63,683 nucleotides of DNA from an uncultured Pseudomonadota bacterium (lineage in GTDB: Bacteria; Pseudomonadota; Alphaproteobacteria; UBA9219): positions 1 through 63,683 of the forward strand of contig CAIXHP010000005.1 of NCBI GenBank assembly GCA_903919315.1, in the 5' to 3' direction. Shown one piece after another: positions 25,261 through 47,277 of the stretch (position 1 is the stretch's first letter; each line of letters starts with the position of its first letter). The notes beneath the pieces were generated by a model. It did no database searches. It had not been told where the DNA came from and saw nothing but the letters and a program-made list of their open reading frames with translations. A program made the position numbers and the translations under genes.

Positions 25261-25893
25261 ATGACGATGACTCCCGAAAAACTCCAGCGCCTTGTCGCCG
25301 CCGTCCGCGCGGCGCTCGCCGAGGATTGCCTGCTGGCGGACGCGCCGTTGGGCGAGCTGTGCATCCTCGTTCCGCGCGCGCGTATTGCTGACGTGATGTT
25401 GCGGCTGCGCGACGATCCCGATGTGGCGATGACGCAACTGATGGATGTCTGCGGCGCGGATTACCCGGAGCGTCCGGAACGCTTCGACGTGGTCTATCAT
25501 CTGCTTAGTCTGCGCCACAACTGGCGGCTGCGGGTCAAGGTGGAGACCGACGAAGCCTCACTGGTTCCGTCGGTCACGGGCGTGTACAGCGCGGCCGGGT
25601 GGTTCGAACGCGAGTGCTGGGATATGTACGGCGTGATGTTCAGCGGTCATCCGGATTTGCGGCGTATCCTGACGGACTATGGCTTTGAAGGCCATCCGCT
25701 GCGCAAAGACTTCCCGCTCGTCGGCCACGTCGAGGTGCGTTACGACGATGAACAAAAGCGCATCGTCTATGAACCCGTCAAAATGCCGCAAGACTTCCGC
25801 AACTTCGACTTCCTCAGCCCATGGGAAGGCATGACGGACGTGATGCGTTTGCCGGGGGATGAGAAGGCGGGGGAGCCGGAGGCGAAGCGATGA
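25261..25893 (+). CDS. nuoC: NADH-quinone oxidoreductase subunit C
   Basis: The product is 210 aa, a separate NuoC rather than a NuoCD fusion. The conserved part runs from [20 protein letters not shown] to the family signature [20 protein letters not shown] and [16 protein letters not shown]. It belongs to the peripheral arm. The start could also be the ATG two codons later. Its stop overlaps the start of a solute-binding protein gene by 4 bases (ATGA), so that foreign gene is translationally coupled to nuoC. Confidence 0.96.
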
Positions 25894-26783
25894 GGAATAA
25901 GCTTTCCGTTCTCGCCCTTTTGGTTGCGGTTTTGGCGTTGTTAGCGGTGACTTTCGCTGTGCCGAAAAACCAGAAGCCGGAGGTCGTTGGTTCGGTTTAT
26001 GCGCGGGTCATGGAAGCGAGGACTCTGCGTTGCGCTTATCAAGTTTGGCCGCCGTTTTTGGCTAAGGACCCCAACAGTGGCCAGCTCTCCGGCGTTTACT
26101 ACGATTTGCTTCAGAAAATTGGTGAGGGCTTAAGCCTAAAAATCGACTGGGTGGAAGAGGTCGGTTCCGCGAATTATTTCGAGGGATTTCGCACAGGTCG
26201 TTACGACGCTGGTTGTTCGGCGATTACGCCCTCGCCGGAGCGGGCATTGGTCAGCGATTTTTCCATTCCTATCGGCTATGCGCCGTTTTATCTTTATGCC
26301 CGCGAAGGCGATCATCGTTTCGATGATAATTACCAGAAAGCCAACGCCGATGATGTCACGATAATGACGAGCGACGGCACTTTTGCGGACTCCATCGCGA
26401 ATGAAGTTTTCCCGAAGGCCAAGACGGTTTCTCTCCCCAATCTTACCAATGGCGCGGATATGCTTGAGGGCGTTGCGGCAGGCAAAGCGGATGTTACTAT
26501 CATGGATGTGACCCTTGCCTCCGATTTTGCCAAAAACAATCCGGGAAAAATACGGCGCGTTGTTGGCCCGCCTGTGCGGTTTCCTTCTTTGTCGATTGCT
26601 TTGCCCCCCGGTGAGGAAAAGTTGCGGCGTATGATTGACATTACGCTGGTTCACTTGATGGATACGGGATTCCTCGACAAGATTCTGTCGGCACACGGGC
26701 TGGACGATGAGCGCGTATTGCGTCCCGCCCTCCCTTATCAGAGGCCCAATAGCCGAGAGACAACGGAGGGTGGCCAGCCATGA
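25890..26783 (+). CDS. Family-3 extracellular solute-binding protein (nuo insertion 1, between nuoC and nuoD)
   Basis: The product is 297 aa. It begins with a hydrophobic segment ([20 protein letters not shown]) with no clear cleavage site or lipobox, so it may stay anchored to the inner membrane with a periplasmic body. The PBPb fold follows: [31 protein letters not shown] (with the arginine that usually binds the ligand carboxylate), then the second lobe with a MTSDGTFAD strand and [10 protein letters not shown]. It is the most distant of the seven paralogues except the nuoI-nuoJ copy. The ligand is unknown. It overlaps nuoC by 4 bases and is not a complex I subunit. Confidence 0.88.
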
Positions 26784-28095: not shown

Positions 28096-28688
28096 GCGCC
28101 GCAGGACAAGCCAAAGAAGATTTCACCTTCACGCCCGAAAACCTAAGTCGGGCGAAGACGATCATCGCCAAATATCCCGAAGGACGGCAGCAGAGCGCCG
28201 TGCTGCCGCTGCTTGACCTCGCGCAACGCCAGAACGCCAACTGGTTGCCGCGCGCGGCGATGGATTATGTGGCCGCGCTGTTGGACATGCCGCCGATGCG
28301 CGTTTACGAAGTCGCCACGTTTTACACCATGTTTAATCTAGCCCCGGTTGGCGCGAACCTCGTGCAGGTGTGCCGCACCACGCCGTGCTGGCTGCGCGGC
28401 TCGGACGACATCACGCGGACGTGCTGCCAGAAGTTGGGCGTTGGTTTGGGCGAAACCACGGCGGACGGGAAATTTACGGTCAAGGAGGTGGAGTGCCTCG
28501 GCGCGTGCGCCAACGCGCCGATGGTGCAGATCAACGATGATTTTTATGAAGACCTGACTCCGGAAAGCATGGCGAAACTGATCGACGATCTGGCTGAAGG
28601 GCGCAAACCCTCCGTCGGCTCGCAGACAGGCCGTCGCGGCAGCTGCGCTCAGGACGGTGCGACGACGTTGAGGGGGAAAACGTCATGA
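28092..28688 (+). CDS. nuoE: NADH-quinone oxidoreductase subunit E
   Basis: The product is 198 aa. It has the thioredoxin-like 2Fe-2S fold with four cysteine ligands in [12 protein letters not shown] and [15 protein letters not shown]. It is part of the NADH dehydrogenase module with NuoF and NuoG. The last ~30 residues ([20 protein letters not shown]) are the usual variable tail. The next gene is a GIY-YIG protein 13 bases downstream, not nuoF as expected. Confidence 0.96.
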
Positions 28689-28701
28689 TGGGGGCGCGTT
28701 T

Positions 28702-28995
28702 ATGGATAAACGCTTTTGGGTCTACATCATGGCTGATGAGCCTTATGGGACGCTCTATGTCGGGGTTACGAGCCATTTGGCTCAACGCGCATGGCAACAC
28801 CGCACGGGCGCGTTCGAAGGGCACACCAAGAAATACGGCATTAAATGCCTTGTCTATTATGAGGAGTATCCAACAGCCGAGGAAGGATTCGCGCGCGAGA
28901 AAAAGCTTAAAAAATGGAAACGCATCTGGAAAATTGATCTCGTCAAAGCTTTCAATCCGACATGGCGCGATCTTTACGATGATCTCAGAAAATAA
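28702..28995 (+). CDS. Small GIY-YIG endonuclease-domain protein (nuo insertion, between nuoE and nuoF)
   Basis: The product is 97 aa, a stand-alone GIY-YIG domain. The two signature strands are FWVYIMADEPYGTLYVGVT; the helix carries R and H (QRAWQHRTG), and the conserved glutamate is in LVYYEEYPTAEEG. The end is rich in Lys and Trp (KKLKKWKRIWK). Proteins of this size are widespread in alphaproteobacteria and poorly understood. It lies in an operon where it has no known role. Six bases after its stop begins a three-hairpin repeat; the second GIY-YIG gene has the same kind of repeat 18 bases after its own stop. Confidence 0.92.
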   Translation: MDKRFWVYIMADEPYGTLYVGVTSHLAQRAWQHRTGAFEGHTKKYGIKCLVYYEEYPTAEEGFAREKKLKKWKRIWKIDLVKAFNPTWRDLYDDLRK

Positions 28996-29000
28996 CCAGC

Positions 29001-29182
29001 CGTCATTCCGGAAAATTTTGCGCCTTCCTGCGGCGTGGGATGGAGCATTGGATAGCGGGGCGCAAAATTTATCCGGAATCCGATTTTTTGGACTGTTGTT
29101 CCTGCAGCGCGGGAAACAAATCGGATTCCGGATCAATTTTCTTTCGCCCAAGGGGGCGAAGAGAAAATCGTCCGGAATGACG
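29001..29182. repeat. R1 three-hairpin palindromic element, copy A
   Basis: The ends are inverted copies of CGTCATTCCGGA. Inside are three hairpins: AATTTTGCGCC with GGCGCAAAATT; AATCCGATTT with AAATCGGATT; and CCGGATCAATTTTCTTTCGCCC with its near-complement. It follows the GIY-YIG gene directly. Confidence 0.9.
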
Positions 29183-29367
29183 TGCTGTTGTGTGGGGTGG
29201 CGTGATGTTTGGCGATAGAGGCATCATGGTCACCTTTTTTCGGACGGTTGTTCTTGCAACGCGGGAAACAAATCGGATTCCGGATCAATTTTCTTTCGCC
29301 CAAGGGGGCGAAGAGAAAATCGTCCGGAATGACGTGCTGTTGTGTGGGGTGGCGTGATGCTTGACGA
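29096..29367 (+). repeat. 120-bp direct duplication spanning the nuoF start
   Basis: 29096-29215 and 29248-29367 are about 96% identical (offset 152). The block contains the last hairpin of R1 and the sequence around the nuoF start, so an ATG occurs at 29205 (copy 1) as well as at 29357 (nuoF). Confidence 0.9.
29205..29357 (+). CDS. Possible 50-codon leader frame overlapping the nuoF start
   Basis: The ATG in the first copy of the duplicated block opens a frame of 50 codons that ends in TGA at 29355-29357. The last base of that stop is the first base of the nuoF ATG (TGATG). It has the same upstream context as nuoF itself. The encoded peptide resembles translated repeat DNA and has no known family, so any role would be through translational coupling rather than the product. 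Confidence 0.3.
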
Positions 29368-30685: not shown

Positions 30686-30982
30686 GTGCATGAAAAACGT
30701 TTTTGGGTATACATCGTCACCGACAAACCCTATGGGACGCTTTATATCGGCGTTACCAACGATCTTGCGCGGCGCGTTTATGAACACCGCGAGGGATTGG
30801 TTGACGGGTTTACCAAGAAGTATGGGCTTAAGCGATTGGTCTATTATGAGGAATACCCCACGCCTGTCGAGGCGATTGAGCGCGAGAAGAAACTTAAGAA
30901 ATGGAAACGTGATTGGAAAAAGCAACTCATTGAAAAATTCAATCCGACTTGGCGTGATTTGTACGTCGATTTGCAGCTCTAA
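30686..30982 (+). CDS. Small GIY-YIG endonuclease-domain protein (nuo insertion, between nuoF and nuoG)
   Basis: The product is 98 aa from GTG at 30686, chosen because AGAGG precedes it and the length matches the first copy; an in-frame TTG at 30662 is the alternative. It is a close paralogue of the gene at 28702, sharing RFWVYI-x-PYGTLYIGVT, YEHREG, the conserved glutamate in LVYYEEYPTP, and KKLKKWKRDWKKQL. All GIY-YIG motif residues are visible. An R1 element begins 18 bases after its stop. Confidence 0.9.
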   Translation: MHEKRFWVYIVTDKPYGTLYIGVTNDLARRVYEHREGLVDGFTKKYGLKRLVYYEEYPTPVEAIEREKKLKKWKRDWKKQLIEKFNPTWRDLYVDLQL

Positions 30983-34828: not shown

Positions 34829-35716
34829 ATGACAGTTAAGACTGCCCCAATGGCATTCACAATTTCCTTAGCGGTATTCGTGGCCGTTTTTCTGTGGTTT
34901 GCAAACAAAGCAGATCGTCCGATACAACCGTTAGCGCAAGAAACGGTTTTTGAGCGTGTTCTTCGTACGAAGACGCTTCGGTGCGGCTATGTCTCTATTC
35001 CGCTCATTTCGCTGAAAGATCCTAAGACGGGCCAATTTTCAGGAGTGAGCTACGATATTGTCAACGCAATGGGACGCTTTTTGGGCCTTAAAATTGAATG
35101 GGCCGTCGAGACGAACTTTTCAACAATGCTCGAAGAGCTTTCCTTGGGCCGTGTTGACGCTATTTGCCACGGTGACTTTCCTAAAGAAGCAACGGTGGCA
35201 AGGGCAGAGTTTACGGACCCCTTTCACTACCTTGGTTTTGCCGCGTATTCTCGTGCGGATGATATGCGTTTTGACGGCTCTTTAAAATCCCTTAATGAGC
35301 CGAATGTTCGCGTTGCTGTCCTTGATGGGGAAGTCTCAAATGTGATTGCGAAGACGCAGCTGCCGCAAGCCCAGCGCGTTTCTGTTCCTCAGAATGCTAG
35401 CATCAGTGAGATGATTTTACAGGTTACGACAAAAAAGGCGGATATTGCCATCGTACCGGTGCCTGTCGCGAAGCTTTTTCTCAAGTACAATCCGGACAGT
35501 ATTCGGTCAGCCTATGGCGAAAAACCCATTCGCGTCTATCCCATCAGTCTTGTCGTTTCGCACGGTGAGACCAATCTACTGAACTTACTAAACAAAGCTG
35601 TTCGCGAAGTTACGCTTAATGGTGAGGCTGATGCGGCGCTGCACCGATATTTTTCGCCGGACGATATGTTTTACCCTGTGGCTTCCCCGTACGCGCAACT
35701 GAGTGCAGAGCAGTAA
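34829..35716 (+). CDS. Family-3 extracellular solute-binding protein (nuo insertion 2, between nuoI and nuoJ)
   Basis: The product is 295 aa. An N-terminal hydrophobic segment (AFTISLAVFVAVFLWFA) has no lipobox or clear cleavage site. The PBPb fold follows: FERVLRTKTLRCGYVSIP, GRVDAICHGDFPKEATVAR, and a second lobe with KKADIAIVPVPVAK. It shares the paired cysteines and the FERV-RT-T-RC block with the other six but is the most divergent. Its DNA is AT-richer by eye than the flanking nuo genes, so it may have a separate or later origin. A 122-base spacer separates it from nuoJ. Confidence 0.87.
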   Translation: MTVKTAPMAFTISLAVFVAVFLWFANKADRPIQPLAQETVFERVLRTKTLRCGYVSIPLISLKDPKTGQFSGVSYDIVNAMGRFLGLKIEWAVETNFSTMLEELSLGRVDAICHGDFPKEATVARAEFTDPFHYLGFAAYSRADDMRFDGSLKSLNEPNVRVAVLDGEVSNVIAKTQLPQAQRVSVPQNASISEMILQVTTKKADIAIVPVPVAKLFLKYNPDSIRSAYGEKPIRVYPISLVVSHGETNLLNLLNKAVREVTLNGEADAALHRYFSPDDMFYPVASPYAQLSAEQ

Positions 35717-36784: not shown

Positions 36785-38776
36785 ATGTTGCTTGATCTCG
36801 CCGCCGTATTTCTTCCCCTGCTGGGCGCTCTGGTCGTCGGCCTGTTCGGTCGTTCGCTTGGCGACCGCGCTTCGCAGCTTGTGACCTGTGCGGGCGTGTT
36901 GGCCGCCGCCGTCGCGTCCGTGTTGATTTTCCACGACGTGGCTTTGTCGGGGGGCGATACGCATGCGTGGGTGTTGGCGAACTGGATCACTTCGGGCGAT
37001 TTCAAGGTCAACTGGGGGCTTAAGATCGACACGCTCACGGCCGTGATGTTGGTGGTGGTGAACGGGGTGTCGGCGATGGTGCATATCTATTCCATCGGCT
37101 ACATGAGCCACGACAAAGGCGTTCCGCGCTTTATGGCCTATCTGAGCCTGTTCACCTTTTTCATGCTGATGCTGGTGACGAGCGACAATCTGTTGCAGAT
37201 GTTTTTCGGGTGGGAGGGCGTGGGGCTGTCGTCTTATCTGCTCATCAACTTCTGGTACGAGAAGGCTTCGGCCAACAGCGCTTCGATCAAGGCGTTTCTG
37301 GTCAACCGCGTCGGCGACTTTGGGTTCATGCTCGGCATCTTTGGCTGCTATCTGGCGTTCGGGTCGGTGCAGTTCGACGTGATGTTCCAAAAAGCGCCGG
37401 ATCTTATGCAGTCGTCCTTTTCGTTCCTCGGCGCGTCGGTGCCGACGTTGACGACGCTTTGCCTGCTGTTGTTCGTGGGCGCGATGGGCAAGTCGGCGCA
37501 GTTGGGTTTGCACACATGGCTGCCCGACGCGATGGAAGGCCCGACTCCGGTTTCCGCCTTGATCCATGCCGCCACGATGGTGACGGCGGGTGTGTTCATG
37601 GTGGCGCGGTTGTCGCCGGTGTTTGAATTCGCGCCGGATGCCTTGGCGGTCGTGGCGGTGGTGGGGGCGTTGACGGCGATTGTCGCGGCCAGCATCGGCC
37701 TCACGCAATTCGACATCAAGCGCGTGATTGCTTATTCGACCATGAGCCAGCTGGGCTATATGTTTTTCGCGCTCGGCATGTCGGCTTATCCGGCGGCGGT
37801 GTTTCATCTCATGACGCATGCGTTCTTTAAGTCGCTGCTGTTTCTCGGCGCGGGGTCCGTCATTCACGCTCTGTCGGGCGAGCAGGACATGCGCAAGATG
37901 GGCGGGATATGGAGGAAGATTCCCTTCACCTATGCCTATATGTGGATCGGTTCGCTGGCTTTGGCGGGCATTGGCATTCCGGGCGTGATGGGGATGGCGG
38001 GGTTCTATTCCAAGGACATCATTTTGGAATCCGCTTTCGCCGCAGGCATGACGCATCATCAGGCGTTCGGCGTGACGGCCTATGTGCTGGGCCTTATCGC
38101 GGCGTTTATGACGGCGTTTTATTCGTGGCGGTTGCTGTTGCTGACCTTCCACGGCACATTCCGGGGCGATCATCACACGCTTGAACACGCGCACGAAGCG
38201 CCGTGGAGCATGCTCGGGCCGCTTGTGCCGTTGGCGCTGGGGGCGATCTTGGCGGGCAAGTTCGGCTATGATTTGTTCGTGGGCGAGGCTATGGCGGAGT
38301 TCTGGCGCGACTCGATCCTGACGCTCAGCTATTTTCCGCCGCGCGAAACCCATTTGGGGGTCGGCACCACGATCCAATTTGCGCATCATGTGTCGGATTG
38401 GGTGGGGCTGTTGCCTCTGGTCGTGGCCTTGGCGGGCATTTTCATGGCGTATGTCTTTTACGTCTGGGCGCCAAGCTTGCCGGGAAAATGCGCGCGCGGC
38501 TTGGGGGCGCTCTATCGCCTTGTGTTCAACAAATACTATTTTGATGAACTCTATAACGCCGTGTTCGTGCGGACGGCGCAGCGGGTGGGGAAGGCGCTGT
38601 GGACGACCGGCGATGACGCGATCATCGACGGCTATGGCCCCAACGGTGTCGCCGCTCTGGCGGTGCGGTTGAGCCAACGGGCGAGCGCCCTTGAGACCGG
38701 TTATGTCTATCACTACGCCTTTGCGATGGTGATCGGGCTAGCCGGATTTGTCACATGGTTTTGGTTTTGGGCCTAG
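36785..38776 (+). CDS. nuoL: NADH-quinone oxidoreductase subunit L
   Basis: The product is 663 aa, an antiporter-like proton-pumping subunit with a long C-terminal amphipathic helix. Recognisable blocks are GWEGVGLSSYLLINFWY, LPDAMEGPTPVSALIHAATM, VIAYSTMSQLGYMFFALG and HLMTHAFFKSLLFLGAGSVI. Directly downstream, where nuoM should be, five solute-binding protein genes follow, the first starting 12 bases after the stop. Confidence 0.97.
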   Translation: MLLDLAAVFLPLLGALVVGLFGRSLGDRASQLVTCAGVLAAAVASVLIFHDVALSGGDTHAWVLANWITSGDFKVNWGLKIDTLTAVMLVVVNGVSAMVHIYSIGYMSHDKGVPRFMAYLSLFTFFMLMLVTSDNLLQMFFGWEGVGLSSYLLINFWYEKASANSASIKAFLVNRVGDFGFMLGIFGCYLAFGSVQFDVMFQKAPDLMQSSFSFLGASVPTLTTLCLLLFVGAMGKSAQLGLHTWLPDAMEGPTPVSALIHAATMVTAGVFMVARLSPVFEFAPDALAVVAVVGALTAIVAASIGLTQFDIKRVIAYSTMSQLGYMFFALGMSAYPAAVFHLMTHAFFKSLLFLGAGSVIHALSGEQDMRKMGGIWRKIPFTYAYMWIGSLALAGIGIPGVMGMAGFYSKDIILESAFAAGMTHHQAFGVTAYVLGLIAAFMTAFYSWRLLLLTFHGTFRGDHHTLEHAHEAPWSMLGPLVPLALGAILAGKFGYDLFVGEAMAEFWRDSILTLSYFPPRETHLGVGTTIQFAHHVSDWVGLLPLVVALAGIFMAYVFYVWAPSLPGKCARGLGALYRLVFNKYYFDELYNAVFVRTAQRVGKALWTTGDDAIIDGYGPNGVAALAVRLSQRASALETGYVYHYAFAMVIGLAGFVTWFWFWA

Positions 38777-38788
38777 GAACGGGAGGCG

Positions 38789-39682
38789 ATGATGTCGAAC
38801 AAAATTGCATGGGTTGCTTTGTTGGTTGCTGCGGTTGCGCTGGCCATCGTCCTGCTGCGCCCCAGCCCCGCGACGGGCGTGCCGGAGGCGAAAAAGGAAA
38901 CCGCGTTTGAGCGGGTGATGCGGACGCGGACGATCAGGTGCGCGTATGCAATGTGGCCGCCTTACGCTATGAGCGACCCGAATACGGGAGCGAAGAGCGG
39001 CATCAATCATGAGATTATGGAGGCCATCGGCAAGGTCGCTAATCTGAAAATCGAATGGCTGGAAGAGGTTGGGTTTGGCTCTTTTCCCGAACAGTTGCGC
39101 AACGGAAAGGAAGACGTTCTTTGCAGCGGCGCATGGATGGGCGCTCCGCGCGGGCAACGTGTGGAGTATACCTCCCCGATAGAATATAGCGTTCTTTATG
39201 CCTATGTGCGCGAGGACGACTCGCGTTTCGACAGCAAACTCGAAGCGCTTAACGATGAATCGGCAACCATAGCCGTCATAGACGGGGGCACGACGAAGAC
39301 AGCGGCAGATGCGGTTTTCCCCAGGGCCAAACAGTATGCTTTACCGGGAGAGGTAGATACGTCGCAGGCTGTTTTGGCTGTGGCGAAGGGCAAGAGTGAT
39401 GCCGTTATTGTGGATGATTTTCTCATTAGCGACTACAACGCGCGCAATCCGTCAAATAAGCTGAGGCGCGTGGCTGGGGCTCCGCCGCTGCGCACTTTCG
39501 GAGTTGCCTATGCCGTGGCTAAGGGGGAGTGGGAGTTGCGCGATTTGTTGAGCGTTGCTCTCTCGGAGTTGCAGCTGAACGGCACGGTTGAGCGGATCAT
39601 TAAGAAGTATGAGACGACACCCGGCTCGATTTTGCGTGTTGCCAAGCCTTATGCCGATCCTGTTCACGGAGGAAACCCATGA
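38789..39682 (+). CDS. Family-3 extracellular solute-binding protein (array member 1 of 5)
   Basis: The product is 297 aa. After a hydrophobic N-terminal segment (IAWVALLVAAVALAIVLL) comes the shared block ETAFERVMRTRTIRCAYAMW, then GKEDVLCSGAWMGAPRGQR, the PIEYSVLYAYVRED hinge region, and lobe 2 with GKSDAVIVDDFLISDYNA. It ends in VAKPYADPVHGGNP. It is very similar to members 4 and 5. A GGAGG ribosome site precedes the start. The next member overlaps it by 4 bases. Confidence 0.9.
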   Translation: MMSNKIAWVALLVAAVALAIVLLRPSPATGVPEAKKETAFERVMRTRTIRCAYAMWPPYAMSDPNTGAKSGINHEIMEAIGKVANLKIEWLEEVGFGSFPEQLRNGKEDVLCSGAWMGAPRGQRVEYTSPIEYSVLYAYVREDDSRFDSKLEALNDESATIAVIDGGTTKTAADAVFPRAKQYALPGEVDTSQAVLAVAKGKSDAVIVDDFLISDYNARNPSNKLRRVAGAPPLRTFGVAYAVAKGEWELRDLLSVALSELQLNGTVERIIKKYETTPGSILRVAKPYADPVHGGNP

Positions 39683-40542
39683 AGAACAAGCTTTCTGTTG
39701 TAGCGGTTGTTCTGGCGCTCGTAGCGCTGGTCGTGCCGTTGTTGCATTCGCCCGACAAGGGCGGGGAGCCAGCGGCGAAGAAAGAAACCGCGTTCGAACG
39801 GGTGATGCGGACGCGGACGATACGGTGCGGTTATGCGGTGTGGGATCCGCTTTTGTACAAAGACCTTAAGACGGGCGAGATGCTTGGCATCGCGCATGAT
39901 GTGTTTGAAGAAGTCGGGAAAAAGCTGGACCTTAAGATTGATTGGGCCGAAGAGGCGAGCTGGGGAACCATCGTTGAGGGGTTGGCGACCAATCGCTATG
40001 ACGCGATTTGCGTGACGCTCGGCTCTGTTCCGTCACGGGCCAAGGTCATTAACTTCACGGTGCCGTTGACCTATACAATGGCCTATATGATCGTCCGACA
40101 GGATGAAAAACGCTTTGACCACAACATGGACTTGAACAAGAGTGGTTATACCATCGCCGTGTTGGATGGTGACATTTCGTCTTTGGTCGTGCCAAAGAAA
40201 TACGCGCAGGCGCACATATCTTCATTGTCGCAGAGCAGCGAGTATTCTTTGTTGCTGCAGGAGGTTGAAACCGGCAAGGCGGATGCCACGGTCGTGGAGA
40301 TGGCCGCTTTTGACAAGTATCAGAAAACCAATCCCGGCAAACTGCGCGTTTTGAATCCCGCCGAACCGGTCGTCATTGCTCCATTGGTTTTTGGCGTGCC
40401 GCAGGGCGATGTCGCCTTTAAGGCCATGGTGGATGCCGCTGTAAACGATCTGTTGATCGACGGGACGATTGACACGATCGTCAATGCCTATGCGCCGGGC
40501 ATTTTCTCGCGACCTGCCACAACGTATGTCTTGCCGAATTGA
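39679..40542 (+). CDS. Family-3 extracellular solute-binding protein (array member 2 of 5)
   Basis: The product is 287 aa. The N-terminus (MKNKLSVVAVVLALVALVVP) and the ETAFERVMRTRTIRCGYAVW block are nearly identical to the other members. The body differs: NRYDAICVTLGSVPSRAKV, then FTVPLTYTMAYMIVRQDE, and lobe 2 with GKADATVVEMAAFDKYQ. It is the most divergent member of the tandem array, suggesting another ligand. Both cysteines are kept. It is translationally coupled to member 1 and separated by only 7 bases from member 3. Confidence 0.89.
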   Translation: MKNKLSVVAVVLALVALVVPLLHSPDKGGEPAAKKETAFERVMRTRTIRCGYAVWDPLLYKDLKTGEMLGIAHDVFEEVGKKLDLKIDWAEEASWGTIVEGLATNRYDAICVTLGSVPSRAKVINFTVPLTYTMAYMIVRQDEKRFDHNMDLNKSGYTIAVLDGDISSLVVPKKYAQAHISSLSQSSEYSLLLQEVETGKADATVVEMAAFDKYQKTNPGKLRVLNPAEPVVIAPLVFGVPQGDVAFKAMVDAAVNDLLIDGTIDTIVNAYAPGIFSRPATTYVLPN

Positions 40543-40549
40543 GGATGTG

Positions 40550-41440
40550 ATGAAAAACAAACTGCCGCAACTCGCCGTTTTGTTGGCCGTCTTGGCTTTG
40601 GTCGTGCCGTTTCTGCACCCGTCGGGGCAGAGTGCTGAGCCAGCGGCGAAGAAAGAGACGGCGTTTGAACGGGTGATGCGGACGCGGACGTTGCGGTGCG
40701 CTTATATGCTGTGGCCGCCCCATCTTATGGCGGATCCAAATACTAAGGCTTTAAGCGGCAAAGATTTTGAGATTATGGAGGCCATTGGCAAAACGGCGAA
40801 CCTGAAAATCGAATGGGCGGAAGAGGTTGGGTTGGGCGCTTTTCCCGAACAGCTTCATAGCGGTAAGGAAGATGTCTTTTGCGTGACGGTTTGGCAGAGT
40901 TCTATGCGCGCCGCTCGTGTCGATCTTACGCAAGCCGTCGACTATAGCCCGCCCTATGCCTTTGTTCGTGACGGCGACACGCGTTTTGATAACAATCTTG
41001 AATTACTCAACAGTGAGCAGGCGACTATTGTCGTCGTCGATGGCAGCACACATAAGTCGGTCGCTGACAGCTCATTCCCGAAGGCGAAGCAGTATACTTT
41101 GCCGGGCGATTCCGATGCTTCGCAGGTGCTGATGTCTTTGGCTATGGGCAAGGGCGATGTCGTGTTTGCGGACGAGTTTCTTGTTTATGAGTACAACAAA
41201 CATAATCCTGACGCGAAGTTGCGCCGCGTAGCGGGAGTGCCGCCCGTGCGCATTTATGGTGAGGCGTTCGCTGTGGCCAAAGGCGAGTGGGAGCTGCGCG
41301 ATTTGTTGAATGTTGCGCTCGGTGAGTTGCAGGGCAACGGCACTATTGATTGCATTATCAGCAAATATGAGGTGGTTCCCGGCGCGATGCTGCGTGTTGC
41401 CAAGCCTTATGCCGATCCTGCTCGCGGAGAAAATCCATGA
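40550..41440 (+). CDS. Family-3 extracellular solute-binding protein (array member 3 of 5)
   Basis: The product is 296 aa from the ATG at 40550 (MKNKLPQLAVLLAVLALVVP), chosen by similarity to the paralogues; the frame is open 27 codons upstream inside member 2. It has ETAFERVMRTRTLRCAYMLW, GKEDVFCVTVWQSSMRAAR, YSPPYAFVRDGD, and lobe 2 with GKGDVVFADEFLVYEYN. A third cysteine occurs near the C-terminus (GTIDCIISKYEV). It is intermediate in similarity. The stop overlaps the next member by 4 bases. Confidence 0.9.
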   Translation: MKNKLPQLAVLLAVLALVVPFLHPSGQSAEPAAKKETAFERVMRTRTLRCAYMLWPPHLMADPNTKALSGKDFEIMEAIGKTANLKIEWAEEVGLGAFPEQLHSGKEDVFCVTVWQSSMRAARVDLTQAVDYSPPYAFVRDGDTRFDNNLELLNSEQATIVVVDGSTHKSVADSSFPKAKQYTLPGDSDASQVLMSLAMGKGDVVFADEFLVYEYNKHNPDAKLRRVAGVPPVRIYGEAFAVAKGEWELRDLLNVALGELQGNGTIDCIISKYEVVPGAMLRVAKPYADPARGENP

Positions 41441-42327
41441 AAAACAAGCTGTCTGTTGTTGCGGTCGTGGTCGCGCTCGTGGCGCTGGTCGTGCCGCTGT
41501 TGCATTCGCCTGACAAGGGCGGGGAGCCAGCGGCGAAGAAGGAAACCGCGTTTGAGCGCGTGATGCGGACGCGGACGATCAGGTGCGCTTATGCGTTGTG
41601 GCCGCCGTTTGCTATGAGCGATCCGAACACGGGGGCGAAGAGCGGGATCAATCACGAGGTTATGGAGGCCATCGGCAAGGTTGCTAATTTGAAGATCGAA
41701 TGGCTGGAGGAGGTTGGGTTTGGCTCTTTTCCTGATCAGCTGCGATCGGGGAAAGAGGATGTCTTTTGCACGGGCGCGTGGATGAGTGTGCCGCGTGCGC
41801 AACGTATCGAGTACACCGCCCCTATCGAGTACGGTGTTCTGTATGCCTATGTGCGCGAGAACGACGCGCGTTTTGACGGCAAGCTTGAGACGCTTAATGA
41901 TGAAAACGTCACGATGGCGGTTATCGACGGGAACACCAGCGATGCCGTGACGGAAGCAGAGTTTCCGAAGGCGAAGCGGTATGCCGTGCCTTCTGCTGCG
42001 GATGCGGCTCAGCTTCTATTGACTGTGGCGACGGGGAAGGGCGACGCTGTTATCGTGGATGATTTCCAAATCAGCGATTACAACGCGCACAATCCGTCGA
42101 ATAAGCTGCGACGTGTGGCTGGCACACCTCCTTTGCGGACCTTTGGTACGGCCTATGCTGTTGCCAAAGGGGAATGGGAGTTGCGTGATCTGATCAATGT
42201 GGCTCTTTCCGAACTGCAGCTGAACGGGACGGTTGAGCGGATCATTAAGAAGTATGAGACAACGCCTGGCTCGGTCGTGCGCGTTGTTAAGCCTTATGCC
42301 GATCCTGCTCGCGGAGAAAATCCATGA
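41437..42327 (+). CDS. Family-3 extracellular solute-binding protein (array member 4 of 5)
   Basis: The product is 296 aa. It has the common leader (MKNKLSVVAVVVALVALVVP), ETAFERVMRTRTIRCAYALW, GKEDVFCTGAWMSVPRAQR and a lobe-2 segment GKGDAVIVDDFQISDYNAHN. Long DNA stretches are nearly identical to members 1 and 5, particularly the first ~400 bases and the last ~150, which points to recent duplication or gene conversion. It overlaps both neighbours by 4 bases. Confidence 0.9.
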   Translation: MKNKLSVVAVVVALVALVVPLLHSPDKGGEPAAKKETAFERVMRTRTIRCAYALWPPFAMSDPNTGAKSGINHEVMEAIGKVANLKIEWLEEVGFGSFPDQLRSGKEDVFCTGAWMSVPRAQRIEYTAPIEYGVLYAYVRENDARFDGKLETLNDENVTMAVIDGNTSDAVTEAEFPKAKRYAVPSAADAAQLLLTVATGKGDAVIVDDFQISDYNAHNPSNKLRRVAGTPPLRTFGTAYAVAKGEWELRDLINVALSELQLNGTVERIIKKYETTPGSVVRVVKPYADPARGENP

Positions 42328-43205
42328 AGAACAAGCTTTCCGTTGTTGCGGTTGTGGTCGCGCTTGTGGCGTTGGGCATGCCGTTCCTGCATTCATCGGA
42401 CAAAGGCGGCGGGCCGGTGGCGAAGAAAGAGACGGCGTTTGAGCGGGTGATGCGGACGCGGACGATCAGGTGCGCGTACGCGATGTGGCCGCCGTTTGCG
42501 ATGAGCGATCCGAATACGGGGGCGAAGAGCGGGATCAATCATGAGGTTATGGAGGCCATCGGCAAGGTTGCCAATTTGAAGATCGAATGGCTGGAGGAGG
42601 TTGGGTTCGGCTCTTTTCCCGAACAGTTGCGCACGGGGAAGGAAGACGTATTCTGCAGCGGCGCGTGGATGAGTGTGCCGCGTGGGCAGCGTGTGGAATA
42701 CACGGCTCCCATCGAATATAGCGTTCTTTACGCCTATGTGCGCGAAGGCGATGCTAGGTTTGACGGCAAGCCTGAATCTCTTAACGATGAACATTACACT
42801 ATGGCCTTGGTCGACGGCAGCACTAACAAGGCTGTGACGGATGCGGTTTTCTCCAAGGTGAAGCAATATGCTTTGCCGGGTAATTCCGACGATTCTCAGG
42901 CAATGTTGGCGGTGGCTATGGGCAAGAGCGATGCTGTCGTCTTTGATGATTTTCTCATAGGCGACTTTAACGCGCACAATCCGAGCGCCAAGTTGAGGCG
43001 CGTGGCCGGAATGGCTCCGTTGCGCACGTTTGGGGCTGCCTACGGCGTGGCCAAGGGCGAGTGGGAGTTGCGGGATTTGTTGAATGTGGCGCTCTCTGAA
43101 TTGCAGCTGAATGGCACGGTTGAGCGGATCATTAAGAAGTATGAGACGACACCCGGCTCGGTCGTGCGCGTTGCCAAACCTTATGCCAGCGGGCCTGTGA
43201 ACTGA
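42324..43205 (+). CDS. Family-3 extracellular solute-binding protein (array member 5 of 5)
   Basis: The product is 293 aa, closest to member 4 in its first half and to member 1 in parts of its second. It has GKEDVFCSGAWMSVPRGQR, PIEYSVLYAYVREGD and GKSDAVVFDDFLIGDFNAHN. The C-terminal tail is shorter (VAKPYASGPVN), as expected for the last gene of the array, which no longer overlaps a following copy. An R2 repeat lies between it and nuoM. Confidence 0.9.
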   Translation: MKNKLSVVAVVVALVALGMPFLHSSDKGGGPVAKKETAFERVMRTRTIRCAYAMWPPFAMSDPNTGAKSGINHEVMEAIGKVANLKIEWLEEVGFGSFPEQLRTGKEDVFCSGAWMSVPRGQRVEYTAPIEYSVLYAYVREGDARFDGKPESLNDEHYTMALVDGSTNKAVTDAVFSKVKQYALPGNSDDSQAMLAVAMGKSDAVVFDDFLIGDFNAHNPSAKLRRVAGMAPLRTFGAAYGVAKGEWELRDLLNVALSELQLNGTVERIIKKYETTPGSVVRVAKPYASGPVN

Positions 43206-43261: not shown

Positions 43262-43379
43262 CCCTCCCCCCTTGGGGGGAGGTTAGGCGGGGGGTGGGTT
43301 CCGTTTGCGTTGTTGCAGCGTTGTTTGCGGCGCGAGCGACCCCCCACCCAACCCTCCCCCCAAGGGGGGAGGGCTTTTG
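43262..43379. repeat. R2 palindromic element, full copy, between the SBP array and nuoM
   Basis: The left arm (CCCTCCCCCCTTGGGGGGAG, then GTTAGGCGGGGGGTGGG) and the right arm (CCCCCCACCCAACCCTCCCC, then CCAAGGGGGGAGGG) are inverted and enclose ~45 bases. A TTTT tail follows the second arm. Confidence 0.9.
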
Positions 43380-43442: not shown

Positions 43443-44939
43443 ATGTCGAGTAGTTTTCCTTTGTTGTCGGTTGTCACGTTCCTGCCGCTTGTGGGGGTGT
43501 TGATCCTGTTGTTCTTGCGCGGCGGGGATGAGGCGGCGTGGGCGCGGCGGATCGCGTTGACGACGTCGTTGGTCACCTTTGTTGTGTCGCTCGGCATCCT
43601 GTGCGTGTTTGATCCTGCCGTGGCGGGCTTTCAGTTGATGGAGCGCTTTGCGTGGATTCCGTCGTTCCACATTGAATACATCAAGGGCGTGGACGGGATT
43701 TCGGTTTGGTTCGTGCTGTTGGCTACGTTTCTCACGCCCATTTGCATTTTGTCCGGTTCTGTTGTCACCAAGCGCGTCAAGGAATTCATGATCGCGTTTC
43801 TGGTTTTGGAAACCATGATGGTGGGGATGTTTACGGCGCTGGATATGGTGCTGTTCTATCTGTTCTTCGAAGGCGTTCTGATTCCGATGTTCCTGATCGT
43901 CGGCGTGTGGGGCGGGGCGGGGCGGATTTACGCCGCGTATAAATTCTTTCTCTATACGTTCCTCGGCTCCGTTCTGATGCTGGTCGCCATCTTCGCGATG
44001 GTGATCCATGCGGGCACCACCGACATGACGGCGATGATGGGCGGCGTGTTCCCCGACAAGATGGCGATGTGGCTGTGGCTCGCGTTCTTTGCGTCGTTCG
44101 CGGTCAAGATGCCGATGTGGCCGTTCCATACTTGGTTGCCCTATGCCCACGTCGAAGCGCCGACGGCGGGGTCGGTGATCCTTGCGGGCGTGCTGCTGAA
44201 GATGGGCGGCTATGGCATGATCCGTATCGCTATCCAGATGCTGCCGGATGCCAGCGCGTTCTTTGCGCCGATGGTGTTCGCGCTCAGCGTGATCGCGATT
44301 ATCTACACGTCGCTGGTGGCGTTGGCGCAGACGGATATGAAGCGGCTGATCGCCTATTCCTCGGTCGCGCATATGGGCTATGTCACGCTCGGCATTTTCT
44401 CCGGCAACACGCAGGGGATGGAGGGCGCGGTGCTGGTGATGATTTCGCACGGCTTTGTCGCCTCGGCGCTCTTCCTCTGCATCGGCGTGGTGTATGACCG
44501 CATGCATTCGCGCGAGATCGCGCGTTATGGCGGCATGGCGACCAACATGCCGCATTATGCCCTTGTGTTCATGGTGTTCATGCTGGCCTCTGTCGGCTTG
44601 CCCGGCACCAGCGGCTTTGTCGGCGAGTTTTTGTCGATGCAGGGCGTTTTTCTGGTCAGCAGTTGGACGGCTTTCCTCGCGGCGACCGGAGTCGTGCTGG
44701 GCGCGGCCTATATGCTGTGGCTTTACCGGCGCATTTTCTATGGGCCGCTGGACAAGGACGACGTGCGGGCGATGCCGGATTTGAACGCGCGTGAATACGC
44801 GATGTTCGTGCCGTTGATCCTTATGGTGCTGTGGCTGGGGATTCATCCGGCTACGTTCCGCGATGTGTTCGCGTCGAGCGTTCATAAGATTACGTCCGAT
44901 TATCAGGCGCAGACAACGCGCGGGGGAGAAGCGCCATGA
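43443..44939 (+). CDS. nuoM: NADH-quinone oxidoreductase subunit M
   Basis: The product is 498 aa from the ATG at 43443, an antiporter-like subunit with about 14 membrane segments. Typical blocks are [58 protein letters not shown] and [13 protein letters not shown]. Its stop overlaps nuoN by 4 bases. It is separated from nuoL by 4.7 kb of inserted genes and an R2 element, but remains on the same strand. Confidence 0.97.
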
Positions 44940-46423
44940 ATGTCGAAAACATCTACGCTACGTTCCCTGAGCTGTTTCTGGCTTCTTGCGCCCTGATGCT
45001 GCTTTTGTTCGGCGTGAAGCGGGGGAATGACGCGACGTTGTTCACGGGGCTGATCGCCGTGGTGGTTTGTTTGGCGGCGGGCGTTTTGCTGATCAAGCTG
45101 CCGTCTTTCGTCGAGCCGGGGCAGGCGCAGCTTGGGGTGAGCGCGCTTTGCCATGGGTGCAAGGCTTTTGGCGGCATGTTCATCAACGATGCGTTCGCGC
45201 AGTTCGTTAAGGTGCTACTCCTGCTCGCGTCGGCGATCGCGATTATGTTGTCGTGGGGTTATATGGAGCGGCATGGTCTGGAGCGGCCCGAATATCCGGC
45301 GCTGATCCTGTTCGCGACGCTGGGCATGATGCTGATGGTGTCGGCCAACGATCTGCTGGCCTTGTATATGGGATTGGAGTTGCAGTCGTTGGCGCTTTAT
45401 GTGCTGGCATCGTTCCGGCGCGATCATGTGCGATCCAGCGAGGCGGGCTTGAAGTATTTTGTTCTCGGTTCGCTGTCGTCGGGCATGTTGCTGTACGGTA
45501 TTTCCCTGCTTTATGGCTACACCGGTTCTACGGGTTTCGAAGCCTTGGCGCATGTTTTGGCGGGTGAACCGCCCATCGGCGTTGTGCTTGGGCTGGTGTT
45601 CGTTTGCGCCGCGATGGCGTTCAAGGTTTCGGCGGTGCCGTTTCATATGTGGACACCCGATGTCTATGAAGGCGCACCGACTCCGGTGACGGCGTTCTTT
45701 GCCGCCGGGCCGAAACTGGCGGCGTTGGCGTTGTTTGTGCGGGTTCTGCTGCAACCGCTGGCGGGGCTTGAGCATCAGTGGGTGCAGGTGGTGGTGTTCA
45801 TGGCGGTGGCCTCGATGCTGTTGGGCAGCTTTGCCGGGTTGGCGCAAAGCAACATCAAGCGGCTGATGGCTTACAGCTCGATTGCCAATGTCGGCTACGC
45901 TTTGGTCGGCATGGCGGTCGCGAACGAGGCGGGGGTGCAGGCGTTGTTGGTTTATCTCAGCATTTATCTGGTCAATACGCTGGGCGTGTTCGGTGTGATC
46001 CTTTGTCTGCGCCGCGAGGGGGTGATGGCGGAGAAGATTGCCGATCTCGCCGGATTGTCCAAATCGCATCCGTTGCTGGCGGTGGCGATGGGGATTTTTA
46101 TGTTTTCGCTGGCAGGCGTGCCGCCTTTGGCAGGGTTCTTTGGCAAATACTTCGTCTTTCTGGCGGCGGTGCAGGCTGGCATGCTGCCGCTCGCGATCAT
46201 TGGGGTGCTGACCAGTTGCGTGGCGGCGTATTACTATCTGCGGATCATCAAGGTGATGTATTTCGACGATGCGACCGAGGCGGCGGTTGATCCGGTGCCG
46301 GAGTTTTCGCTGCGGATCGTCACGGGCGGGGCGGCGCTGCTTATGCTGCTGTTCGTGTTCATGCCGACTCCGGTGATCGACAGCGCGTTGGCGGCGGCGC
46401 ATAGCCTGATGCCGCAAGGATGA
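44936..46423 (+). CDS. nuoN: NADH-quinone oxidoreductase subunit N
   Basis: The product is 495 aa, the third antiporter-like subunit. Recognisable parts are [60 protein letters not shown] and [18 protein letters not shown]. It completes the 14-gene set. Its stop overlaps the birA start by 4 bases, so birA, coaX and rnj continue the operon. Confidence 0.97.
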
Positions 46424-47277
46424 TCCCGGCGTTCTTTCGTCTGCGCCAAGTCGCGGTCACCGCGTCGACGAACGAGGATGCGAAGCAGGCGGCCATCGAC
46501 GGCGAGGCTGAGGGCTTGGTCGTTCAGGCGCTACGCCAGACGGCGGGGCGCGGGCGACAGGGACGCGTTTGGGAATCGCCGGAAGGCAATCTTTATATGT
46601 CGGTTTTGCTGCGTCCCGCTTGCGGGCCGCAAGCGGCGGGGCATTACAGCTTTGTCGCGGCGTTGGCGGTCTTTGACACGGTGCGGGCTTTTTTGCCGCA
46701 GGCGGAGGTGCTGCTGAAATGGCCGAACGATGTTCTGGTCAACGGCAAGAAGATCAGCGGCCTGTTGCTGGAAGCTGCGCCGGTCGAGAATGGACGTATG
46801 GACTGGCTGGTGTTGGGGATCGGGGTGAATGTCCTTCACCATCCGGAAAACGCGCTGTATCCGACAACATCGCTGGCGGCGGAACAGGGCCGCCCGCGTT
46901 CCTCCCCCCTTGAGGGGGAGGCTAGGTGGGGGGTGGGTTCCGTTGGCGATGTGGTGGCAAGTTCGGCACCTGCGGGACGTGACCTCCCACCCAACCCTCC
47001 CCCTCAAGGGGGGAGGGCTTTGAGCGCGGTTTTGGAGGAGCTGCTTTGCGCCCTGGATCGTTGGCGGCGGGTGTTGGAGGCGGAGGGCTTTGCGCCGGTT
47101 CGTGCGGCGTGGTTGGCGCGGGCGCGGACGGGGGCGTTAACCATACGTTTGCCGCAGGAATCCTTCGATGGGACGTTTGTCGGTCTTGACGGAAACGGCT
47201 GTTTGATCGTTCGGTTGGCGAACGGAGCGGAAAGGACTATAGCTGCGGGCGATGTTTTCTTTCCTCCAAGGGATTAA
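46420..47277 (+). CDS. birA: Biotin-[acetyl-CoA-carboxylase] ligase with an in-frame repeat insertion
   Basis: The product is 285 aa, a catalytic-only BirA without the N-terminal repressor domain. It has QTAGRGRQGRVWESPEGNLY (biotinyl-AMP-binding loop), LLKWPNDVLVNGKKISGLLL, and LVLGIGVNVLHHPE. Residues ~161-201 (SSPLEGEARWGVG... ending PPPQGGRA) are the translation of a full R2 repeat, inserted in frame between the catalytic core and the C-terminal SH3-like domain. Without it the protein would have about 244 residues, the normal size. The enzyme attaches biotin to carboxylases. Confidence 0.93.
   Translation: MIPAFFRLRQVAVTASTNEDAKQAAIDGEAEGLVVQALRQTAGRGRQGRVWESPEGNLYMSVLLRPACGPQAAGHYSFVAALAVFDTVRAFLPQAEVLLKWPNDVLVNGKKISGLLLEAAPVENGRMDWLVLGIGVNVLHHPENALYPTTSLAAEQGRPRSSPLEGEARWGVGSVGDVVASSAPAGRDLPPNPPPQGGRALSAVLEELLCALDRWRRVLEAEGFAPVRAAWLARARTGALTIRLPQESFDGTFVGLDGNGCLIVRLANGAERTIAAGDVFFPPRD
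46901..47021. repeat. R2 palindromic element, full copy, inside birA
   Basis: 121 bp with both arms (CCTCCCCCCTTGAGGGGGAG ... CCTCAAGGGGGGAGGGCTTT) and a middle part like that of the intergenic copies. The birA frame stays open through it. Confidence 0.92.

Follow-up and report, generated by a model that had tools for sequence, protein, structure and literature searches.

What are five genes for solute-binding proteins (SBPs) doing inside the operon of respiratory complex I? The question is raised by a stretch of 63,683 nucleotides (the window), which is one entire contig of a 2.4-Mb alphaproteobacterial genome (here G000; G001 and so on are relatives of the same order). Between nuoL and nuoM, positions 38789-43205 are occupied by five consecutive open reading frames (ORFs) on the plus strand, all of which match the family PF00497 (SBP_bac_3) with 55-69 bits at a gathering score of 26.4. 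A first-pass annotation had described a tandem array of five binding proteins, which is confirmed here; the complex-I setting had been missed, as had the larger family and the single importer described below. The reading that we favour, with a probability of about 0.58, is that interchangeable receptors deliver different ligands to one ATP-binding cassette (ABC) importer of the GlnPQ/HisMP type, encoded on contig C55 of the same genome, and that the array is an outpost of this receptor family, cotranscribed with complex I and grown by recombination.

The array is a small part of a large family. A search with member 5 detected 38 copies in G000, 24-82% identical to the query. Besides the array, the nuo operon contains one copy between nuoC and nuoD and one between nuoI and nuoJ (58-67 bits to PF00497), so that it has seven in all. 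The AlphaFold2 model of member 5 (pLDDT 84) has a predicted two-lobe periplasmic-binding-protein fold, and a Foldseek search with the model returned amino-acid SBPs of the PDB with a probability of 1.00, TM scores of 0.6-0.7 and E-values down to 1.6e-18. The sequence itself matches the polar-amino-acid receptors of the PDB with a best E-value of 8e-14 and an identity of 18-26%. No NCBIfam equivalog cut-off was reached for GlnH, HisJ, ArgT, ArtI or EhuB, the best scores being far lower, and the Pfam matches of the array members are to PF00497, the TctC family being absent from them. Ancestral cyclohexadienyl dehydratase precursors are among the top PDB sequence matches. Since these precursors are binding proteins with consensus-like sequences, the reading of the family as this enzyme is not favoured.

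The residues R49, C50, Y52, G70, D108, C111, K201 and D203 are invariant in all 37 full-length copies. Of the 37, 21 retain the canonical Arg that binds the carboxylate (position 120), and the amine-binding position 208 carries Asp in 17 and Glu in 10, both positions being assigned by alignment and not from a ligand structure. In other words, the sequences suggest a fixed scaffold with a varied pocket. The N-termini vary as well: read by eye, the majority carry a hydrophobic leader in which no cleavage site is obvious, a lipobox-like LSGC is present in one, and another two look like twin-arginine translocation (Tat) leaders. The 38th copy is part of a single ORF in which a cyclodipeptide synthase domain (PF16715, E = 1.9e-26) stands ahead of SBP_bac_3, with no leader between the two (L064:5311-6747, contig C58). 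Beyond the order, the family was found in a minority of Alphaproteobacteria, belonging to several other small-genome families (only six candidates were scored per genome). A literature search, with subscription papers outside its scope, returned no earlier description of this SBP family.

The permease model TIGR01726 (polar-amino-acid permease) matches one locus of G000, on C55, where the order of the genes is SBP-SBP-permease-ATPase and where two of the 38 copies are found. The genome thus has the composition seen with orphan SBPs, i.e. 38 receptors, mostly unlinked, to one detectable polar-amino-acid permease. Across 33 genomes of the order the number of SBP copies ranges from 0 to 38 and that of the permease never exceeds one. 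Both are present in 18 genomes and neither in 11; four have SBPs only and none has the permease only (Fisher p = 7e-6). All ten genomes that are at least 90% complete and have three or more SBPs also have the permease. Moreover, one to five SBP genes lie beside or just ahead of the permease in 12 of the 13 permease loci that were read, the exception being G024.

If the favoured reading is correct, the array would be one outpost of a lineage-specific, periplasm-facing family of amino-acid-type SBPs whose copies serve as interchangeable receptors, bringing different ligands to the C55 importer. The five members would be read within the complex-I transcript and would thus be produced whenever the respiration genes are expressed, each being translated from its own Shine-Dalgarno sequence across short gaps or ATGA overlaps. 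Unequal recombination between neighbours would have enlarged the array, and the ends would be kept alike by recombination that affects the leader and the 3' end, leaving the bodies behind the leaders different.

A number of observations weigh against this reading. The TIGR01726 matches score 35.8 bits where the curated cut-off asks for 42.2, and the importer count covers TIGR01726 permeases only, so that a "single importer" means a single detectable polar-amino-acid permease. Four genomes carry SBPs and no permease; one of them is 69% complete, and the others (G001, G027 and G030) are 93-100% complete and have 1-3 SBPs. Many copies no longer have the canonical ligand residues, for which reason some may bind no amino acids or may not transport at all. 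Docking on the permease and transport by the array members are themselves predictions. Finally, about 8 copies adjoin regulators of the XRE or TrmB type, a position that would suit sensing no less than uptake.

Each member of the array consists of a basic N-terminus, a hydrophobic leader, a KKETAFERVMRTRTIRC block and the two-lobe body; a GGAG-type Shine-Dalgarno sequence precedes each start, and the starts are spaced 887, 871, 887 and 887 nt apart. The first-pass annotation had every stop overlapping the next start and took this ATGA junction as the device that lets the array grow without breaking the operon. The overlap is present at the junctions 1/2, 3/4 and 4/5. At junction 2/3, the TGA of member 2 (40540-40542) is followed by a 7-nt gap and the ATG of member 3 at 40550. 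In the arrays of relatives, too, some genes overlap by ATGA and others are separated by 4 to about 130 nt. Because one of the four junctions here and some of those in relatives do without it, ATGA is not what makes growth possible, and as a precondition of growth it was rejected.

The number of SBP genes between nuoL and nuoM is five in G000, four in G018, one each in G002, G004 and G011, and zero in the 20 other relatives in which the junction is complete. The copy number is thus far from constant among relatives, in line with growth by tandem expansion. In a quick tree of 97 proteins, in which the internal order of group B is only partly resolved, the residents of this junction fall into two groups. 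Group A contains member 2, the G004 and G011 copies and one G018 copy (support 100), and group B contains members 1, 3, 4 and 5, three G018 copies, the G002 copy and some copies from other loci (support 99). Since the residents split in this way, the array unites two types of receptor that are older than itself, and one of the two then multiplied; members 1, 4 and 5 form a clade with a support of 100. Members 2 and 3, which the first-pass annotation had put into one class that keeps only the leader and one block, therefore do not belong together, as both the tree and the identities place member 3 with members 1, 4 and 5 and member 2 in an older group. The description holds for member 2, whose DNA is 80-91% identical to that of members 4 and 5 over approximately codons 1-50 and about 40-55% thereafter. 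It does not hold for member 3, the protein of which is 61-62% identical to members 1, 4 and 5 over the full length. As to the long near-identical DNA reported for members 1, 4 and 5, it is found in local blocks (up to 97% in 90-nt windows), the pairwise identity being 76-79% overall.

The distribution of divergence along the copies, examined in windows, is not uniform. The contrast is evident in member 2: its leader (residues 1-36) is 97% identical to that of member 4 and its body about 32%, whereas in comparison to its orthologs in relatives the body is 53-55% and the leader 22-39% identical. The DNA block that members 2 and 4 have in common comprises 195 nt at 89% identity, i.e. 30 nt upstream of the gene and 165 nt of leader. 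Other genomes present the same picture. Two copies at the importer locus of G017 share 153 nt at 92% while their bodies are 26% identical, and comparable shared leader blocks are seen in the arrays of G018 and G010. In general, the leaders of tandem neighbours with 24-40% body identity are 61% identical (n=34) as compared to 36% for non-neighbours from the same genome (n=719); the difference has p = 3e-16, or p = 1.6e-14 without this array, values that are tempered by the fact that the pairs are not independent.

The leader and the C-terminal helix could be conserved by function, and one may ask if functional constraint alone, without gene conversion, accounts for the conserved ends. We find this improbable, as the likeness extends to positions that the protein does not see. 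In members 1, 4 and 5, codons for the same amino acid differ in 22-29% of cases in the ends and in 41-51% in the centre (p = 7.5e-5, 0.0066 and 0.0023), the blocks shared by members 2 and 4 and by the G017 pair include, in the former, upstream DNA and stand, in the latter, before strongly diverged bodies, and dispersed copies within one genome do not share leaders. The conserved ends and diverged centre noted in the first pass thus hold at synonymous codons too, and the gene conversion proposed there for the ends is supported by the member 4-type leader of member 2 and by the recurrence in other arrays. For leaders that are alike in front of divergent bodies, the best explanation is a leader that undergoes gene conversion or unequal crossing-over, and the sequences fit either. 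More tentatively, one might think of a constant-leader, variable-body receptor system, in which recombination in a leader of ~150-195 nt ending near FERVMRTRTIRC repeatedly swaps bodies within tandem arrays, single genes relocate into core operons, and dozens of receptors use one importer.

Selection on the bodies is a different matter. The ratio of non-synonymous to synonymous substitution rates (dN/dS) among members 1, 4 and 5 is 0.13-0.17, rising to 0.2-0.3 in codons 151-190; with values well under 1, positive selection on the centre was rejected for these members. The ligand diversification that had been suggested is not supported as a product of selection, which is purifying on average, and we can only infer that the members differ in ligand.

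The dispersed copies bear on two other explanations. The majority occur as lone genes flanked by core genes, outside the importer locus, and they have the strand of the upstream gene in 24 of 37 cases and that of the downstream gene in 25 of 37, as judged with a home-made gene caller. Confirmed operon slots in G000 include hflK|SBP|hflC, accB|SBP|accC and ruvB|SBP|thioesterase. The hflK-hflC junction is without an SBP in all 25 relatives in which both genes were read; the accB-accC slot is empty in 26 relatives and is occupied in G021, and apparently also in G018, by a paralog other than that of G000. Among 14 reciprocal-best SBP pairs of G000 and G018 (orthologs 59-72% identical), common flanking genes were found only at nuoL-nuoM and at the importer locus, for which reason relocation of copies between loci is likely, although a general decay of gene order from genus to genus may account for part of this; the single flank matches of two other pairs are reading frames on the opposite strand of the SBP gene and do not count. 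Such differing sites, empty slots and exchanged paralogs are what one would expect if the genes spread in a quasi-mobile or neutral manner into expressed operons, many copies being redundant. Neither a transposase nor the mark of a target site was seen, however, the presence of SBPs follows that of the importer, and the low dN/dS of the array together with the invariant residues argues that the copies are useful, so we regard this explanation as rather unlikely.

Slightly less unlikely, in our opinion, is that the copies are chiefly sensors, with ligand-bound SBPs passing a signal to a regulator or a membrane kinase and with transport as a secondary role. Sensing has been proposed for orphan SBPs (PMC5994714). 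It is kept open here by the several copies beside XRE-type regulators, which have a shared C-terminal part, or TrmB-type regulators. One copy has a hybrid histidine kinase gene on one side and TldD/PmbA on the other. Genes for an XRE regulator, an SBP, the permease and the ATPase are clustered in G025 and G029, an arrangement that may be the founder. Most copies have no regulator next to them, however, none of the 38 is fused to a transmembrane signalling partner, and the co-occurrence with the single importer is strong. An action of the proteins on complex I, in its assembly or as a ligand-controlled activity, would fit the seven copies in the nuo operon and the use of the nuoL-nuoM slot in five genomes, but it is very improbable: the empty junctions of 20 relatives and the 31 copies elsewhere mean that complex I does not need the SBPs.

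The coordinates of the features are collected in Table 1. Palindromes were also considered. An imperfect palindrome is located in the gap between member 5 and nuoM, and a palindromic repeat with the core CCCTCCCCCCNNGGGGGGAGGG has 8 sites in the window (43262-43373 and seven more) vs 0 expected. One copy with this core, at 46996-47017, lies within the biotin ligase gene (46420-47277), the protein of which has an extra in-frame stretch SSPLEGEARWG...PPNPPPQGGR. Two families of palindromic repeats were counted around the copies. The ATTCCCGC palindrome occurs within 300 nt of 5 of the 38 SBP copies vs 6 of 202 other genes (p = 0.017, uncorrected for two motifs), and the CCTCCCCC palindrome showed no enrichment around the SBP copies; with these values, a mobile-element signature was not adopted as the mechanism. 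The nuo operon also contains a GIY-YIG domain ORF (PF01541) at 30686-30982 between nuoF and nuoG and a 177-aa ORF without a Pfam match at 28685-29218 between nuoE and nuoF. In G022, G013, G018 and G019 (L118, L120, L121 and L126) nuoJ and nuoK are 0.6-1 kb apart, and no SBP was found there.

Table 1. Features of the array, its neighbours and related loci (window positions unless a locus, L, or contig, C, is given)
Feature	Position	Strand	Remarks
SBP copy between nuoC and nuoD	25890..26783	+	start overlaps nuoC stop (ATGA)
SBP copy between nuoI and nuoJ	about 34829..35716	+	
nuoL, upstream neighbour	36785..38776	+	PF00361, PF00662
SBP member 1 (PF00497)	38789..39682	+	297 aa; own leader, group B body; start 12 nt past nuoL stop
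Leader-exchange block of member 2	39649..39843	+	shared with member 4
SBP member 2	39679..40542	+	287 aa; group A body; orthologous to nuoL-nuoM residents of G004, G011, G018
ATGA stop/start overlap, members 1/2	39679..39682	+	
SBP member 3	40550..41440	+	296 aa; group B; start without overlap with member 2
SBP member 4	41437..42327	+	296 aa; group B
ATGA stop/start overlap, members 3/4	41437..41440	+	
SBP member 5	42324..43205	+	293 aa; group B
ATGA stop/start overlap, members 4/5	42324..42327	+	
nuoM, downstream neighbour	43443..44939	+	PF00361; ATG 237 nt past array end
XRE-/TrmB-type regulators next to SBP copies	L068:14996, L063:4194, L066:9888, L078:5294, L080:1311, L067:4987, L083:4730		mostly divergent
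Regulator beside SBP, permease and ATPase	L148, L149		
accB-accC slot	L207, L216; G018 contig C94		filled by different SBP paralogs in different genomes

The array and its family are best read as a variant of the known orphan-SBP expansions. The Bug (TctC) SBPs of tripartite tricarboxylate transporters (TTT) reach up to 181 in Bordetella, with at most 4 membrane components, and 434 in Rhodoplanes sp. Z2-YC6860 (PMC5994714). There, too, lineage-specific dispersed SBPs far outnumber the membrane components, most are orphans and some lie near regulators. The Bug proteins, however, belong to the TTT family, occur in larger genomes and are mostly encoded by single genes, whereas the present family belongs to ABC family 3, in a genome of 2.4 Mb with at most one importer, and has copies in core operons and tandem arrays with common leaders. 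The sharing of an importer has a precedent in DppA1-A5 of Pseudomonas aeruginosa, several SBPs which share the ABC importer DppBCDF according to mutants and complementation (PMC4206461). In the Dpp system several paralogous SBPs, some in tandem and one remote, serve one ABC importer, as the present SBPs would; the difference is between five di/tripeptide SBPs near their importer and 38 amino-acid-type SBPs mostly far away from it. LAO/HisJ, GlnH, ArgBP, AncQR and AncCDT-1 are matched by member 5 in sequence and fold, but at the low identity given above; in the present family the ligand-binding Arg and Asp are found in about half of the copies and the pair Cys50/Cys111 in all full-length ones.

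Orphan SBPs are an old puzzle, as they could feed shared importers, sense or be idle. A small genome with 38 receptors and a single detectable importer is an extreme case, and as the presence of SBPs follows that of the importer across the order, the shared-importer idea becomes directly testable. The recurrent exchange of leaders offers a concrete route for the evolution of receptor arrays, and the placement of copies in nuo, hflKC and accBC indicates that supposedly rigid operons accept receptor genes.

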